Part shown: positions 7,353 to 14,312 of the stretch, one piece after another
How the letters are laid out: each line of letters starts with the position of its first letter
How positions within the stretch are numbered: the stretch's first letter is position 1
Source: Alistipes sp.
Lineage (GTDB): Bacteria; Bacteroidota; Bacteroidia; Bacteroidales; Rikenellaceae
DNA length: 64,000 nucleotides
Assembly: GCA_017646625.1 (NCBI GenBank)
Contig: JAGCMF010000002.1
Span: 86,751 to 150,750 of the forward strand
Direction of reading: 5' to 3'
Made by a program: the position numbers and the translations under genes
Notes under the pieces: model-generated
Told to the model about the DNA's origin: nothing
Database searches by the model: none
Seen by the model: only the letters and a program-made list of their open reading frames with translations

Positions 7353-8702
7353 TTATAACCAGTCGTTAGTGTTTACCGTGCCCTTTGGTGCATTGGGCAC
7401 ATTGTCAAAGTAGGTGAAGCCTGTTAGTTCTTCGAGCTCCTCTATAGAGATGATATCCTTCACCTGTGGTTTGTGACCCTTCTGCTGCTCGTGGCATATC
7501 ACAAATGCTGCACACTGCAGTTCTGATGCCGAGCAATCCTTTACTGACTTACCCGATGAGCCACTCTTGGTGCGCAGTAGTGCGTAGTAGAACATCGTTG
7601 GGCGTGATACGTCTGTGCGACCACCGAATGATATCTTTGCTGGTCTGCCAGTGTTGCCATACTTGTCGGTGTATGTGTCGAAGTAGCAGCCTATTACGGT
7701 GTATAGCGTGTCACGACATACGAGGCCGTCGATGTGGTCCTCAAGGTTGTTCCATGCGCCACCTCCCGTATTGAAGGTGTCGGAGTACTGTGGTGCGATG
7801 TTAGAGTAGTAGAATACCTGTCTGTTTGTTGCAGATGACGATAGTCGTTCTGCCGAGCCCAGCATATGACCCTTGTTACATCCGCCACCCGTACTCTTGC
7901 TCGAGTACTGTATGTTTGATGGTATCTGTGGATCTTGTGCGTAGGCATCCGTGCGACTTGCTCCCGACTCGTATGACGAGTGGCGTGGTGCAGCTACCCA
8001 TACAGGGCAGTGATGGTCGGCAGAGAAGCATACGGTGAAGTTACGTGCTGCACCGTTGCGCTGCGCATTCTTCTCACCACCAGCACATAGGTGGTGTGCA
8101 TAGTAGTACGATGTGTTCACATCATCCCTGCCGTCACCATTGCTATCCATCTCGGCGGGTAGCTCAAACCATCCCGCACGATAGGTGTTGCCACTCGATG
8201 GATTTGGCTCTGGGTCGGGCTCTGGGTCGGGCTCTGGATCAGGTTCTGGGTCGGGTTCTGGATCAGGTTCTGGGTCGGGCTCTGGATTTGGTTCAGGGTC
8301 GGGCTCTGGGTCTGGTTCGGGGTTGGGGGTCTCGCCGTTGGCCAGTGTTTTGAATGTGTCGCCCTTGAGCTGCCAGCTGTCGTCTTCGGTCATGATTAAG
8401 ATGCTGTAGGCGTAGCTTGTCGATGGCTTAAGATTCTCGATATTGACCTCTATTATGCGACCGAGGGGTGCATCGTGTAGCTGCTGCTTATCCGATCCTG
8501 ATAAGCTCAATAATACTCCAATGCGCTTTATTGCGCCAAAGTCAGAGGCGTTTATTGTCGCCTCTATTGTCACACTTGTGGCTGTGATGCTTGTGGCATT
8601 GCTCTCCACGACGCTGCAGATGAAGGGGGTCTCCTTCTCGCAGCCCACAAAACCTATCACTGCGATGGCTAACGCAGCAACTAATGTAAGTATTCGTCTC
8701 AT
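7353..8702 (-). CDS. DNA/RNA non-specific endonuclease, lipoprotein with PEPD-repeat linker
   Basis: A 449-residue predicted lipoprotein ([10 protein letters not shown], Cys21). Residues about 28-120 look like a fibronectin-type beta domain. A linker of Pro-Glu-Pro-Asp/Asn repeats (about 126-168) follows, and then an Endonuclease_NS (Serratia/NucA) domain. The active-site region reads [16 protein letters not shown], with His of the xxGH motif as general base, and the downstream metal-ligand Asn lies in NIAPQ...AWNNLEDHI. The family usually has DRGH; here it is NKGH, a known type of substitution. The probable role is surface nucleic-acid degradation for nutrient supply or biofilm. It overlaps no neighbour and is 6 bp from dtd. 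Confidence 0.88.
8200..8333 (-). repeat. 12-bp coding tandem repeat (PEPD/PEPN units)
   Basis: About eleven imperfect copies of a 12-base unit encode Pro-Glu-Pro-Asp or Pro-Glu-Pro-Asn in the endonuclease linker. Each unit keeps the frame, so copy-number change would alter linker length without truncating the protein. Confidence 0.9.
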
Positions 8703-10408: not shown

Positions 10409-10560
10409 CAAAAAATAACAACATCATATACCTATATTTAAAATAAAAGCATGTTGTATAGTGCTAAATGCTCGATTTTGTATGTTTATGCTATGTTTTG
10501 TGGTGGTGGCTGTATGGTAAGGTGGCGGCTGGTAAAAGTTAATTACATGGCGATATTATT

Positions 10561-10590
10561 TTGATATTTAAAAATAATTTATTAACTTTG
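10561..10590 (+). promoter_or_regulatory. Promoter of the metY-metX-hom operon
   Basis: TTG (10561-10563), a 19-base spacer and TAACTTTG (10583-10590) give a near-perfect Bacteroidetes promoter. The predicted start near 10597 leaves a leader of about 225 bases before metY, unusually long for this window. Confidence 0.8.
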
Positions 10591-10608
10591 CATAACCTAC
10601 TAACAAAA

Positions 10609-10701
10609 ATGAACGCTGTAAGAGATATAGATTGTTTGTGTGTAGCCGTTGTGATGATGGCTCGCTGTGATATGTATATCTCTATGCGAATGTGCCGTTA
10701 G
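10609..10701 (+). CDS. Candidate Cys/Met-rich leader peptide upstream of metY
   Basis: A 30-codon frame starts 12 bases after the predicted transcription start and ends in TAG at 10699-10701. Four residues are Cys (positions 9, 11, 20, 29) and six are Met (1, 16, 17, 22, 26, 28), so ten of thirty residues are sulfur amino acids. It begins MNAVRDIDCLC and ends SMRMCR. The operon it precedes makes homocysteine, the precursor of Met. This is the logic of amino-acid-sensing leader peptides. No homologue is known to me; expression is inferred. Confidence 0.55.
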   Translation: MNAVRDIDCLCVAVVMMARCDMYISMRMCR

Positions 10702-10737
10702 GCACTACTCTTCACCTCGTGTGGCTACGTGCCGCAC
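10692..10737 (+). promoter_or_regulatory. Competing hairpins in the metY leader
   Basis: GTGCC (10692-10696) pairs with GGCAC (10701-10705) across a four-base loop, overlapping the leader stop codon. GTGTGGC (10719-10725) pairs with GCCGCAC (10731-10737) with one G-U. GGCAC can alternatively pair with GTGCC at 10729-10733, so the structures are mutually exclusive. A C-rich, G-poor stretch (10736-10760) follows and could serve Rho. No U-tract terminator is visible, so any control would be translational or Rho-dependent. I do not recognise a known SAM riboswitch class. Confidence 0.4.
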
Positions 10738-10822
10738 GCACCCAACCCCATTTAAATACCAAGAAGTGCGCCACAGGTGTGTGGATGTGCTATGTGTGAT
10801 TATTAAAAAAAACGATATAACT

Positions 10823-12106
10823 ATGTCTGATAGAAAACTACACTTCGAGACCTTGCAGATTCACGGTGGCTACCATGTAGATGCTTCGCAGGCGCGAGGT
10901 ATCGCCATACACCCAACTGCCGCCTACCACTTCCCATCATGCGAGTATGCCGCAAACCTCTTCACTTTGAGTGAGCCAGGTTACATTTATACACGTCTTC
11001 ATAACCCCACTACAGCATCATACGAGGAACGTATAGCTGCCCTATATGGTGGTGTTGGAGCTCTTGCTACGGCATCGGGTATGTCGGCTATATTGCTTAC
11101 TGTCACTGCCTTGGCGAATGCTGGACAGAATATCGTTGCCTCGCCATACCTCTATGGTGGCACACACAACCAGTTTGTTATATCGTTGCGAAATGTGGGC
11201 ATCGAGTGTCGCTTGGCAAAGAGTGACTCGGCAGAGGATATCGCAGCCTTGATAGATGAGAATACGCGTGCAGTGTTTGCCGAGTCTATGGGTAATCCGA
11301 CATGCCGAGTTGTAGATATTGAGGCTTTGGCGAAGGTGGCGCATCAAAACAATATTCCACTTATCATCGACAATACGTTTGGTGCTGGTGGTTACCTATG
11401 TAACCCCTTTGAGTGGGGTGCTGACATCATCACCGACTCGGCAACAAAGTGGATAAATGGTCATGGCACAGCCATGGGTGGCATCATCGTCGATGGTGGT
11501 ACGTTCGACTGGCGTGCATCGGGTAAGTTCCCACAGATTGATGGCCCTTCGGAGGGTTACCACGGCCTTAACCTGTGTGATAGCTTTGGTAATGCTGCCT
11601 TCATCGTTAAGTGTCGTGTTGATGGCATGCGTGACTTCGGTTGCTGCCCATCGCCCTTCGATGCATACCTCATGCTCATAGGCCTTGAGACCCTATCGTT
11701 GCGTGTAAGACACGAGGTGGAGTCGGCATATAAGCTTGCCGACTACTGCCGTCGTCACCCTAAAGTTAAGAGTGTCAGCTTTGTGGGTCATGAGGATCAC
11801 CCCAGCCATGAGCTTGCCAAGAAGTACTTCCGTCATGGTGCCTCGGCAGTCATGACCATAGAGCTCGCTGGCGACCTTGACTCTACCGTGAAGTTTGTCG
11901 AGAGCCTCAAGCTGTCGGGTAATATGACTATGATTGGTGACTCTATGACTGTTGTTACGCACCCCGCCTCGACAACACATAAGCAGCTCTCTGACGAGGC
12001 GAAGCGTGCTGCGGGCATCACCCCAACGCTGCTACGCATATCTCTCGGCTTGGAGAATGTCGAGGATATCATCGCTGACTATGAGCAGGCGCTAAACAAC
12101 ATATAG
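10823..12106 (+). CDS. metY: O-acetylhomoserine sulfhydrylase (aminocarboxypropyltransferase) MetY
   Basis: A 427-residue PLP enzyme of the Cys/Met metabolism family that makes homocysteine from O-acetylhomoserine and sulfide. The sequence starts MSDRKLHFETLQIHGG and shows the YTRLHNPTTASYEERIAALYGG region and DSATKWINGHGTAMGG, where Lys binds PLP. Upstream in-frame codons extend the frame by 52 residues, but they fall inside the structured leader and do not look like the family, so I chose 10823. It is the first gene of metY-metX-hom; metX begins one base after its stop. Confidence 0.95.
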   Translation: MSDRKLHFETLQIHGGYHVDASQARGIAIHPTAAYHFPSCEYAANLFTLSEPGYIYTRLHNPTTASYEERIAALYGGVGALATASGMSAILLTVTALANAGQNIVASPYLYGGTHNQFVISLRNVGIECRLAKSDSAEDIAALIDENTRAVFAESMGNPTCRVVDIEALAKVAHQNNIPLIIDNTFGAGGYLCNPFEWGADIITDSATKWINGHGTAMGGIIVDGGTFDWRASGKFPQIDGPSEGYHGLNLCDSFGNAAFIVKCRVDGMRDFGCCPSPFDAYLMLIGLETLSLRVRHEVESAYKLADYCRRHPKVKSVSFVGHEDHPSHELAKKYFRHGASAVMTIELAGDLDSTVKFVESLKLSGNMTMIGDSMTVVTHPASTTHKQLSDEAKRAAGITPTLLRISLGLENVEDIIADYEQALNNI

Positions 12107-12107
12107 T

Positions 12108-13124
12108 ATGAGCAGGCTATTTAGATATAGCGCCCCTGTGACTCTTGAGTCGGGTGCTCTCTTGCCCGAGGTGGAGATTGCCTACGACACCTTTGGTGAG
12201 CTCAATGCCCAGAGGGATAATGTCATATGGGTGTGTCATGCTCTCACGGCGAACTCCGATGTGGCAGATTGGTGGCCACATACTGTCGAGGAGGGTAAGT
12301 TCCTTGATCCTGGCAAGTACTTCATCGTGTGTGCCAACTTCCTCGGCTCGCACTATGGCACGACCTCTCCACTATCGATAAACCCCGCTACGGGCAAGAA
12401 GTGGTACTATGACTTTCCGCAGATTACCGTGCGCGATATGGTTATGTGTCATCAGCTCCTTGCCAAGCACCTCGGCATAGAACGTGTCAAGTTACTTATT
12501 GGTAGCTCTATAGGTGGCTTTCAGTGTATGGAGTGGGCAATTATGGAGCCTCACTTTATGCAGCATCTGGCACTCATCGCCACCACGCCCTGCTCCGAGC
12601 CGTGGGCGGCAGCCTTCAATGAGTCGCAGCGCATGGCCATACGCCTCGATAAGACATGGGGCGAGGAGAGTGATGATGCAGGATTGGATGGTATGGCCGT
12701 GGCGCGTTCCATAGCCCTTATAAGCTACCGTGGTGGTGCTGCCTATAACGCCACGCAGCAGGAGACGGAGCCCTGTGAGGCGTCGTTTGTACGTCGTGCA
12801 CATAGCTACCAGCAGTACCAGGGTGAGAAGCTACGCCGTAGGTTCAATGCCATGTCGTACTACCGCCTGTCGGAGGCTGTAGACTCGCATAACATAGCAC
12901 GTGGCAGAGGTGGCATCGCCGAGGCGTTGGGTCGTATTGCTGCGCGCACACTTGTTGTTGCCATCTCGTCAGATATACTCTTTCCTCCCGAGGCACATAT
13001 ACCTCTACGTGAGCATATCGCCGATGTTGAGTACCACCTCATAGAGTCGGAGTTCGGCCACGATGGCTTCCTTGTGGAACACGAAAAACTAAACACTATA
13101 ATACAGAACTTTATAAATGCATAA
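12108..13124 (+). CDS. metX: Homoserine O-acetyltransferase MetX
   Basis: A 338-residue alpha/beta hydrolase-fold enzyme that acetylates homoserine for methionine synthesis. The family signature VCHALTANSDVADWW appears near residue 45. The nucleophile is in LIGSSIGGFQCMEW (near residue 130), and the C-terminus has the acid (SSDILFPPEAH) and catalytic His (EFGHDGFLVE). It is adjacent to metY, which uses its product, so assignment as the acetyl (rather than succinyl) enzyme is supported by context. Seven bases separate it from hom. Confidence 0.95.
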   Translation: MSRLFRYSAPVTLESGALLPEVEIAYDTFGELNAQRDNVIWVCHALTANSDVADWWPHTVEEGKFLDPGKYFIVCANFLGSHYGTTSPLSINPATGKKWYYDFPQITVRDMVMCHQLLAKHLGIERVKLLIGSSIGGFQCMEWAIMEPHFMQHLALIATTPCSEPWAAAFNESQRMAIRLDKTWGEESDDAGLDGMAVARSIALISYRGGAAYNATQQETEPCEASFVRRAHSYQQYQGEKLRRRFNAMSYYRLSEAVDSHNIARGRGGIAEALGRIAARTLVVAISSDILFPPEAHIPLREHIADVEYHLIESEFGHDGFLVEHEKLNTIIQNFINA

Positions 13125-13130
13125 CGATAT

Positions 13131-14312
13131 ATGAAAAATATTAATATTGGACTCTTCGGTTTTGGTAATGTGGGTCATGGTCTCTATGACGTGTTGCAGC
13201 GCATAAACTCATCGCACGTGCACATCAAGCGTATCTGTGTGCGCGACTTGAATAAGGATAGAGGTGTCAAGGCGGAGTTTACCTCAAACCCTGACGATAT
13301 ATTTGAGGATAGGGATATAAACCTTATCGTTGAGGTTATCGACGATGCAGAGGCGGCATATGAGATTGTCAAGCGAGCTCTCAAGAGCCGCATCCCCGTG
13401 GTGTCGGGAAATAAGAAGATGCTCGGCCACCACATCATCGAGCTCATAGACCTCCAGGAGCAGTTTAACACGCCGCTGTTGTACGACGCCTCGGCCTGTG
13501 GCTCTATACCTGTTATTCGTAACCTCGAGGAGTACTACGACAATGACCTGTTGTGCTCGGTTAAGGGCATCCTCAATGGCTCGTCAAACTTTATCCTGTC
13601 GAAGATTTTTAATGAGCATATGTCGTACGAGGCGGCCCTCAAGCTCGCCCAGGACCTCGGCTTTGCCGAGAGTAACCCAACACTCGATATAGATGGCTGG
13701 GACTCGTTGTATAAGCTTATCATCATCACCATGCACGCCTTTGGCGTATATGTAGCCCCCGAGGAGATTCTCACTTATGGTATCTCTACGATGAACGACT
13801 CGGATATACGCTTTGCGTTGGAGAAGGATCGCCGCATAAAGCTCGTTGCACATGTCGAGAAGATTGACGATAGGCTCATCATGTGTGTGTTGCCACAACT
13901 CATATCGCGCAACAAGTATATCTATAGTGTTGAGGATGAGTTTAATGGCGTTGTCATCAAGGGCTTGTTCTACGATAAGCAGTTTATGTTCGGCCGTGGT
14001 GCTGGTGGTCACCCTACAGGCTCTGCGGTGTTGAGTGATATCACGGCGTGTGGCTATAACTACCGCTACGAGTATAAGAAACGTAAGGACTCGGTGCTTC
14101 CTGTCTATACCACCGACCACACCTTCCGCGTATATTTCCGCTATAAGAGTGCCGAGCAGCGTAACCTTCTTAACTTCCTGAAGATTAGGGAGCAGTATTC
14201 GTCTGACGACTACAACTATATCGTTGGCGATGTTACGCTTGCCAACCTTAAGGCGCACCAGGAGCAGCTGCGTGTTGCTGACTGTTTCGTCGCAGCATAC
14301 CCTTTCGACTAA
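13131..14312 (+). CDS. hom: Homoserine dehydrogenase
   Basis: A 393-residue NAD(P)-dependent enzyme reducing aspartate semialdehyde to homoserine. The Rossmann motif GLFGFGNVGHGLYDVL is at residue 8. The catalytic domain shows SGNKKMLGHH, LLYDASACGSIPVIRNLEEYY, ILNGSSNFILSK and GFAESNPTLDIDGWDS. The last 70 residues (HTFRVYFRYKSAEQRNLL onward) could be a divergent ACT-like regulatory region, so feedback control by threonine is possible but not shown. As last gene of the operon it supplies the substrate of MetX. asd, which makes its substrate, is 10 kb downstream. Confidence 0.95.
   Translation: MKNINIGLFGFGNVGHGLYDVLQRINSSHVHIKRICVRDLNKDRGVKAEFTSNPDDIFEDRDINLIVEVIDDAEAAYEIVKRALKSRIPVVSGNKKMLGHHIIELIDLQEQFNTPLLYDASACGSIPVIRNLEEYYDNDLLCSVKGILNGSSNFILSKIFNEHMSYEAALKLAQDLGFAESNPTLDIDGWDSLYKLIIITMHAFGVYVAPEEILTYGISTMNDSDIRFALEKDRRIKLVAHVEKIDDRLIMCVLPQLISRNKYIYSVEDEFNGVVIKGLFYDKQFMFGRGAGGHPTGSAVLSDITACGYNYRYEYKKRKDSVLPVYTTDHTFRVYFRYKSAEQRNLLNFLKIREQYSSDDYNYIVGDVTLANLKAHQEQLRVADCFVAAYPFD

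Follow-up and report, generated by a model that had tools for sequence, protein, structure and literature searches.

Attenuators of the trp and his type combine a leader peptide rich in codons for the product of the pathway with a hairpin formed where the leader ORF ends, upstream of a biosynthetic operon. In actinobacteria, the accessible portion of Seliverstov et al. 2005 (PMC1262725) describes runs of Cys codons near the stop codon of leaders before cys operons. No conserved terminator is reported in that portion, and polyY motifs are put forward as possible Rho sites, a prediction that the authors themselves call weak. In Streptomyces lividans, the leader metL (MSTTSDRTPATEATTTPGARCMCRRMCAF) precedes metNIQ and has no typical terminator, according to the part of the paper that is openly available (PMC8079986). 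For the E. coli toiL/topAI uORF, the accessible part of PMC12121999 reports antibiotic sensing and regulated Rho termination shown by experiment. A 2010 survey, as far as its accessible text goes, gives Proteobacteria and Actinobacteria as the known sources of leader-peptide systems and adds Firmicutes (PMC2965389). In B. thetaiotaomicron some long 5' UTRs hold sORFs reminiscent of leader peptides, as stated in the accessible part of PMC7366714. Among the open-access matches listed, a set that leaves subscription journals and preprints outside, there was no description of a Bacteroidetes methionine leader or of a SAM-I/uORF tandem.

Here we analyzed a window, i.e., a stretch of 64,000 nt of DNA from an Alistipes sp. 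genome (G000; 1.87 Mb, 37 contigs, 90.7% complete), in which a leader ORF on the forward strand (10609..10701) precedes metY-metX-hom. The ORF starts with ATG at 10609, ends with TAG at 10699-10701 and encodes the 30 residues MNAVRDIDCLCVAVVMMARCDMYISMRMCR. Translation of 10609-10701 bore out the four Cys and six Met codons, initiator counted, given in the first-pass annotation. The last ten codons, DMYISMRMCR, hold one Cys, and the consecutive Cys codons typical of the actinobacterial leaders toward their stop are absent. The leader peptide has no NCBIfam match at E ≤ 1. Bacteroides promoters follow the consensus TTTG/TAnnTTTG, and a promoter of this type can be read from the sequence at 10560..10590 (+), with TTTG at 10560-10563, a 19-nt spacer and TAACTTTG at 10583-10590; it is missing from the output of a sigma-70 scan of the window. 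The leader ATG is located 18 nt past the TAACTTTG box. With an assumed promoter-to-start spacing, transcription presumably begins at about 10597 and the ATG lies about 12 nt beyond, in agreement with the promoter and start codon that had been annotated.

The location ahead of metY-metX-hom likewise held up in profile searches. The gene metY, encoding O-acetylhomoserine sulfhydrylase (10823..12106, +), matches TIGR01326 with 557.2 bits, above the cut-off of 495.1, and hom, encoding homoserine dehydrogenase (13131..14312, +), matches NF004976 with 296.7 bits, above the cut-off of 205. The match of metX, encoding homoserine O-acetyltransferase (12108..13124, +), to TIGR01392 (334.3 bits, E 8e-100) lies below the curated cut-off of 500. 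The leader stop and the metY ATG are 121 nt apart. Since leader-stop to gene-start distances in Bacteroidetes peak at 11-14 bp in the accessible part of PMC4833913, a reinitiation antenna is not favored. Elsewhere in the window, an ORF at 7353-8702 (-) begins like a lipoprotein and contains a long linker of PDPEPDPEP repeats; on the strand opposite to it, an ORF of Gly-Ser repeats can be read at 8185-8409.

The end of the leader forms a core, ATGCGAATGTGCCGTTAGGCAC (10684..10705, +), which comprises the codons MRMCR, the UAG stop and the first bases beyond, and contains the codon pair CGA-AUG. Of the 101 genomes of the genus, own genome counted, 88 have MetY, and the metY upstream regions of 83 of these were read, one copy each; excluded were five genomes in which the match was fragmentary, weak or at a contig edge, and every second copy except L320. 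A leader ending in the core was found in 39 of the 83 regions, and all 39 cores read CGA, TGC and TAG in a search that left codon 2, the last base of TGY and the type of stop unfixed. A scan of genome contigs using a 20-mer with CGA fixed and TGY open yielded 77 loci, with TGC in every one. Their labels are Alistipes, Rikenellaceae, Tidjanibacter or Candidatus Avirikenella (73 loci), a Muribaculaceae MAG (1) and Prevotella (3). In 74 of the 77, a MetY match starts 118-303 nt past the point where the core begins; two of the core loci without MetY (L124 and L137) have just 199 and 38 nt of DNA from the core onward, and the third, L139 from Prevotella corporis, shows no match over 548 nt. In the Prevotella loci L103, L121 and L139 the core takes the form of a six-residue ORF, MMRMCR, and metY follows about 300 nt downstream in two of them.

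Pooling the genus set and the contig scan gave 116 loci, 78 of them distinct by sequence, over which the 22-mer core has 7 variants; the core was the search key that defines these 78 loci, and the Cys of MRMCR, the one constant Cys, formed part of the search pattern. In one locus, L015, the peptide ends in MRMCL and not in MRMCR. Searched in 294 further genomes of the order, the exact 18-base core pattern was found in none; the pattern MPMCM[RS] was found in 2 of 395 genomes of the phylum. In the own genome, searching the core with 3 mismatches returned five sites (four forward, one reverse) in comparison to 1 and 1 for a reversed control. The first-pass annotation had regarded absence of the frame from close relatives as speaking against the leader, and on this point the result is divided: four relatives with MetY 89-90% identical (L009, L010, L014 and L017) have the promoter box but no leader, and, these four included, 32 of the 83 genus regions are without a recognized leader, set against the 39 that carry the core. 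One MAG, G082, has two metY copies, L009 without a leader and L320 with leader and core; contamination of this MAG (4%) may account for it.

A TAnnTTTG box lies at most 260 nt upstream of the core in all 78 distinct loci; a few of these boxes, at 50-150 nt from the first ATG, may be chance matches. The first ATG is located 17-23 nt past the box in 58 of the 78; counted from at least 8 nt past the box, in 73 it shares the frame of the core and reads through to it without a stop. In four of the remaining five this ATG is out of frame, 10-15 nt past the box, and in one it is in frame but runs into a stop; each of the five has an in-frame ATG further on. Frames +1 and +2 of the leaders contain 151 and 71 stops, respectively, in 1649 codons. 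The part of the peptide ahead of the core differs strongly between species. In 1205 codons of this part from 56 non-redundant leaders, Met occurs 142 times vs 21.9 expected (sd 4.8), a 6.5-fold enrichment with z=25.0, followed by Ala as the second most enriched residue (z 7.9), whereby z-scores and Fisher values here and below overstate independence, the loci being related by descent and the nulls shuffling base composition, not phylogeny. The Met frequency peaks two codons ahead of the core (38 of 76 leaders); two of the 78 leaders, with just a start codon ahead of the core, were excluded from this variable-part count. Some members have few Met residues outside the core, e.g., MYIFASHIMRMCR, MNLSSYIMRMCR and the Prevotella peptide MMRMCR.

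By its leader ORF, frame and Met enrichment across the relatives, the element is peptide-coding and looks like a methionine leader. The earlier proposal, a leader of the metY operon that senses its own product through both Cys and Met, stands with respect to frame, position and Met enrichment and is not supported for this clade in its Cys half: ahead of the core, Cys is not enriched among the 56 non-redundant leaders (28 vs 39.2 expected, z=-1.9), and the extra Cys codons of the window leader are not conserved across these relatives. Dual Cys/Met sensing is therefore rejected as the main reading for the clade.

At the RNA level, the core contains a hairpin, H1 (10692..10705, +), formed by GUGCC at 10692-10696, the loop GUUA and GGCAC at 10701-10705, so that the stop codon falls partly in the loop and partly in the stem. 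H1 cells are paired to 98.9% and nearly invariant, and the pairing by itself is therefore weak evidence. The arms GUGCC/GGCAC are retained in L015, with the loop shifted. A pyrimidine-rich, G-poor linker follows (10706..10717, +), in which C exceeds G in 46 and falls below G in 5 of 56 loci, with a G content of 5.2%. The second hairpin, H2 (10718..10738, +), consists of CGUGUGGC, the loop UACGU and GCCGCACG, and is present in both the MFE and the centroid fold computed for the window leader. It begins about 34 nt past the start of the core, and UACGC or UACGU stands at the place of its loop in 44 of 77 distinct loci; 78.1% of H2 cells are paired and 22% unpaired. For the whole structure in an alignment of 56 sequences (A1), covariation amounted to 0.323 vs 0.164 in shuffled alignments (0 of 500) and double-change cells to 86 vs 36.0 (0 of 500), whereas 192 of 500 shuffles had at least as many doubly changed pairs (7). 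When the partners were slid against each other, 28-46% of cells paired in place of 86.8%, and covariation fell to 0.05-0.17.

From the end of H2 onward lies a C-rich, G-poor stretch (10738..10767, +), a candidate Rho-loading, rut-like site. In these 30 nt, C exceeds G in 52 and falls below G in 2 of 56 loci, compared with 25 and 24 in the leader ORF and 25 and 21 just downstream. Rho loading sites are characterized by a high C:G ratio and weak structure, according to the accessible part of PMC12121999. Pairing of the core with downstream RNA hardly differed from shuffled controls in any of three ranges (14.21 vs 13.43, 14.68 vs 14.47 and 14.95 vs 14.86), and a conserved antiterminator or a classical switch is not visible in the aligned window-type leaders. 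In one subclade (L028, L032, L034, L036, L039, L040 and others), a third hairpin of approximately GUGUC..GACAC can be seen by eye 3' of H2; its 5' arm could pair with GGCAC of H1 as well.

A second Met-rich leader form precedes metY in 12 members of the same genus (L058, L062, L064, L065, L067-L069, L072, L073 and L079-L081), of which 11 were found by pattern and L058 was added; all 12 were tested together, L068 and L069 sharing an identical leader. In this form, exemplified by MNTARRYDRVSEMLHQNMMMVMCMCNRFRRV, a hairpin precedes a T run, and its 5' arm pairs over 6-7 bp with GCCGGG in the final codons of the leader. A terminator scan flags 9 of the 12, and hairpin and T run are readable in all 12. 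The antiterminator arm is preceded in 12 of 12 loci by in-frame Met codons at distances of exactly 16 and 22 nt, and the alternative folds are similar in energy (-13.9 to -15.4 vs -13.3 to -18.0 kcal/mol). Judged by its layout, the second form is a classical attenuator geometry with Met as the control codon at the same gene, metY. In another family, L168 (MSMMMVTCMRNRRSRV) has a layout resembling the second form by eye.

Beyond the genus, short ORFs ending in Met, Cys and Arg are found in metY upstream regions of several other families; 29 of 89 metY regions of the order hold a short ORF with at least 3 Met/Cys in the last 12 residues, in a scan run without a null. The SAM-I riboswitch family RF00162 was matched in 16 of 20 hand-picked metY loci of the order, and overall 61 times in 54 of 198 genomes of the order, with 0 matches in the own genome G000. 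We examined the 61 RF00162 loci (L259-L319) for uORFs by position only, taking the first ATG 5-25 nt past the riboswitch. This ATG opens a short ORF in 46 loci and a long ORF in 6, and 9 have none. VLDGAMG occurs in four of the six long ORFs, which we take to be metH-like. MetY follows 21 of the 46 short ORFs (L261 and L262 at just ~33-34% identity) and MetX 2; many of the other genes presumably are metH- or aspartokinase-like, judging by eye from their first residues.

The last ten codons of the 43 SAM-I uORFs with at least 8 codons contain Met 76 times in 425 vs 7.0 expected, Arg 53 vs 27.3 and Cys 23 vs 14.0, and Met makes up 6 of 823 residues outside these tails. At least one Met is present in 37 of the 43 tails, at least two in 29, and 3 have neither Met nor Cys; M-x-M occurs in 20 of 43 vs 0.1 expected. 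The tails vary in sequence (MPRMR, MPMCMRR, MFMR, MDMRGMRM). Outside the order, 50 SAM-I loci (the 30 top-scoring of the phylum and 20 chosen from the same class) have a short ORF in 12 cases and Met in 1 of 60 tail codons, from which it follows that the Met-tail uORF is typical of Bacteroidales and not of SAM-I generally; L361, with the end CCITRMR, lies outside the order and resembles its type. Across the 43 loci, a common stop hairpin was weak (mean z -0.93, 9 below -2), as was an excess of C over G after the stop (28 vs 12 loci). Runs of Cys close some metY leaders of the order, e.g., AAMRMCCCC, NSWRMCCCCC, MPMCMCCCGNHS and SSCCCFCCC. Leaders of this kind were seen at L199, L205 (the same place as L294), L223, L225 and L244, their endings also including MCMCCCGNHS and VRMCCCKH. 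These leaders of other families may be candidates for Cys or dual Cys/Met sensing.

The codon pair CGA-AUG of the core has a counterpart in the SAM-I uORFs. In the genus, CGA stands ahead of the second core AUG (10687-10692) in all 39 loci retrieved with that codon left open. In the SAM-I uORFs, CGA makes up 12 of 16 Arg codons before Met vs 3 of 70 other Arg codons (Fisher 4.6e-9), the 12 pairs coming from 9 uORFs of which some are related (L277 has three, L287 two, and L268 and L279 are alike). CGA-AUG is no general rule, as it was found in 0 of 6 cases ahead of the core in window-type leaders and in 2 of 6 in the second form; among Arg codons before Met, CGA accounts for 4 of 14 in MetY genes and 3 of 24 in long ORFs of the window. 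The tRNA-Arg anticodons in G000, a MAG of 90.7% completeness, are TCT, CCT, CCG and ACG; TCG was not found among the 30/31 tRNA loci scanned. CGA is therefore probably read by the inosine (ACG) tRNA. The bias of the riboswitch uORFs points toward a codon-pair effect on ribosome pausing.

We consider it probable that the leader acts in cis as a ribosome-mediated sensor of Met-tRNA for metY-metX-hom. Comparison demonstrates leader ORF, frame, Met enrichment, covarying hairpin and C-over-G bias in the aligned loci, and the steps that would join them can be pictured as follows. RNA polymerase would start near 10597 and a ribosome would translate the leader. With ample Met-tRNA, the ribosome would pass the Met codons, terminate at UAG and leave, upon which H1 and H2 could fold, with the C-rich stretch past H2 left open. 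Transcription would then be aborted before metY, presumably by Rho, or metY would be poorly expressed. With scarce Met-tRNA, the ribosome would wait at the AUG codons near the end of the leader; with AUG 10684 in its A site, it would cover GUGCC and block H1. A waiting ribosome on the transcript would favor read-through and thus higher expression of the operon. CGA before AUG may sharpen the pause, since it is probably read by inosine. Provided that the sensor is right, Rho-type termination is the outlet that fits best, with about even chances, given the base composition. The second form, with its Met codons at fixed spacing from the antiterminator, counts for Met sensing at metY, as do the Met-rich uORFs that follow SAM-I across the order ahead of metY, metX and other genes; leaderless close relatives, Met-poor members and the lack of a classical switch count against it.

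Some of the same features could be explained by arrest of the nascent peptide, in which the C-terminal MRMCR would stall at the stop with a ligand (Met or SAM) in the manner of TnaC and shield the C-rich RNA from Rho. The constancy of MRMCR and UAG in the window type would suit such an arrest, keeping in mind that this end was also the search key, as would its retention in very short ORFs (MMRMCR) and the C-rich stretch near the stop. However, tails across the order vary with Met kept and converge on no single peptide, L015 ends in MRMCL, and Met enrichment reaches ahead of the core, so that we regard arrest as rather unlikely. Decidedly unlikely, in our view, is a structured RNA (riboswitch or protein-binding site) with a chance short ORF whose translation would be incidental. 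CGA and TGC, constant at synonymous positions, the conserved H1, the covariation in H2 and the fold of the window leader (z=-3.45) speak for it, but the frame is kept in 73 of 78 loci despite very different N-terminal peptides, Met is enriched in that frame, and Rfam, RF00162 included, gave no match in the whole window at gathering thresholds or in 10540-10900 at E ≤ 10.

Sensing of both Cys and Met gains from the four Cys and six Met codons of the window leader with one Cys in MRMCR, from the Cys runs in other Bacteroidales metY leaders and from the mildly raised Cys of the SAM-I uORF tails; set against the lack of Cys enrichment in the clade, it appears very unlikely. A classical attenuator with an intrinsic terminator in the window itself would have precedent in the 12 loci of the same genus that carry this form ahead of metY, and 4 of 56 window-type loci contain a terminator-like site, compared with 0.36% of shuffles. 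The terminator scan, however, returned none near the window leader, 52 of the 56 loci are without one and no conserved antiterminator accompanies them, which makes this reading exceedingly improbable.

The methionine sensor may be one version of a modular device that controls methionine genes across Bacteroidales. In this proposal, which taken as a whole could equally prove right or wrong, the Met-rich end of the uORF would read Met-tRNA; a SAM-I riboswitch, present in many lineages 5-25 nt ahead of the start codon, would decide whether translation takes place, giving a two-input gate for SAM and charged Met-tRNA within one leader. The window clade would have lost or never had the riboswitch and would use the uORF, the hairpin overlapping UAG and a Rho-type outlet, with a classical terminator in the sister clade. 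If true, a methionine leader would extend across Rikenellaceae, and three apparent outlets (Rho-like, intrinsic terminator and riboswitch-gated) would exist in one order, a natural series for the evolution of attenuators around one kind of sensor. The layout of riboswitch and uORF would also allow control of methionine synthesis in gut bacteria by SAM to be told apart from control by charged Met-tRNA, and as a feature of Bacteroidales it is broader than the window leader itself.

Compared with the known systems, the window leader resembles the trp and his attenuators in its short ORF rich in codons for the product, the hairpin at the ORF end and the position ahead of a biosynthetic operon. It differs from them in that the window type has neither an intrinsic terminator nor a conserved antiterminator, both of which the second form has. 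With the SAM-I uORFs of Bacteroidales it shares a Met-rich tail before methionine genes, and their ends SMCMR and SMFMR resemble SMRMCR; unlike these, it directly follows a promoter in a genome without RF00162. As far as the accessible parts of the respective papers go, the actinobacterial Cys leaders are similar in having codons for a sulfur amino acid near the stop, no conserved terminator and possible Rho sites, whereas here Met codons precede metY and are accompanied by a covarying hairpin and a strong excess of C over G. Within the same limits, and by description, S. lividans metL is alike in its tail of Met, Cys and Arg, the lack of a typical terminator and a Met-related operon; it belongs to another phylum, has a leaderless start and serves a transporter operon. 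The toiL/topAI system, again going by the accessible text, senses antibiotics, and is like the window leader in that a uORF would report ribosome stalling to a Rho site upstream of the gene, which at metY is a site predicted from composition.
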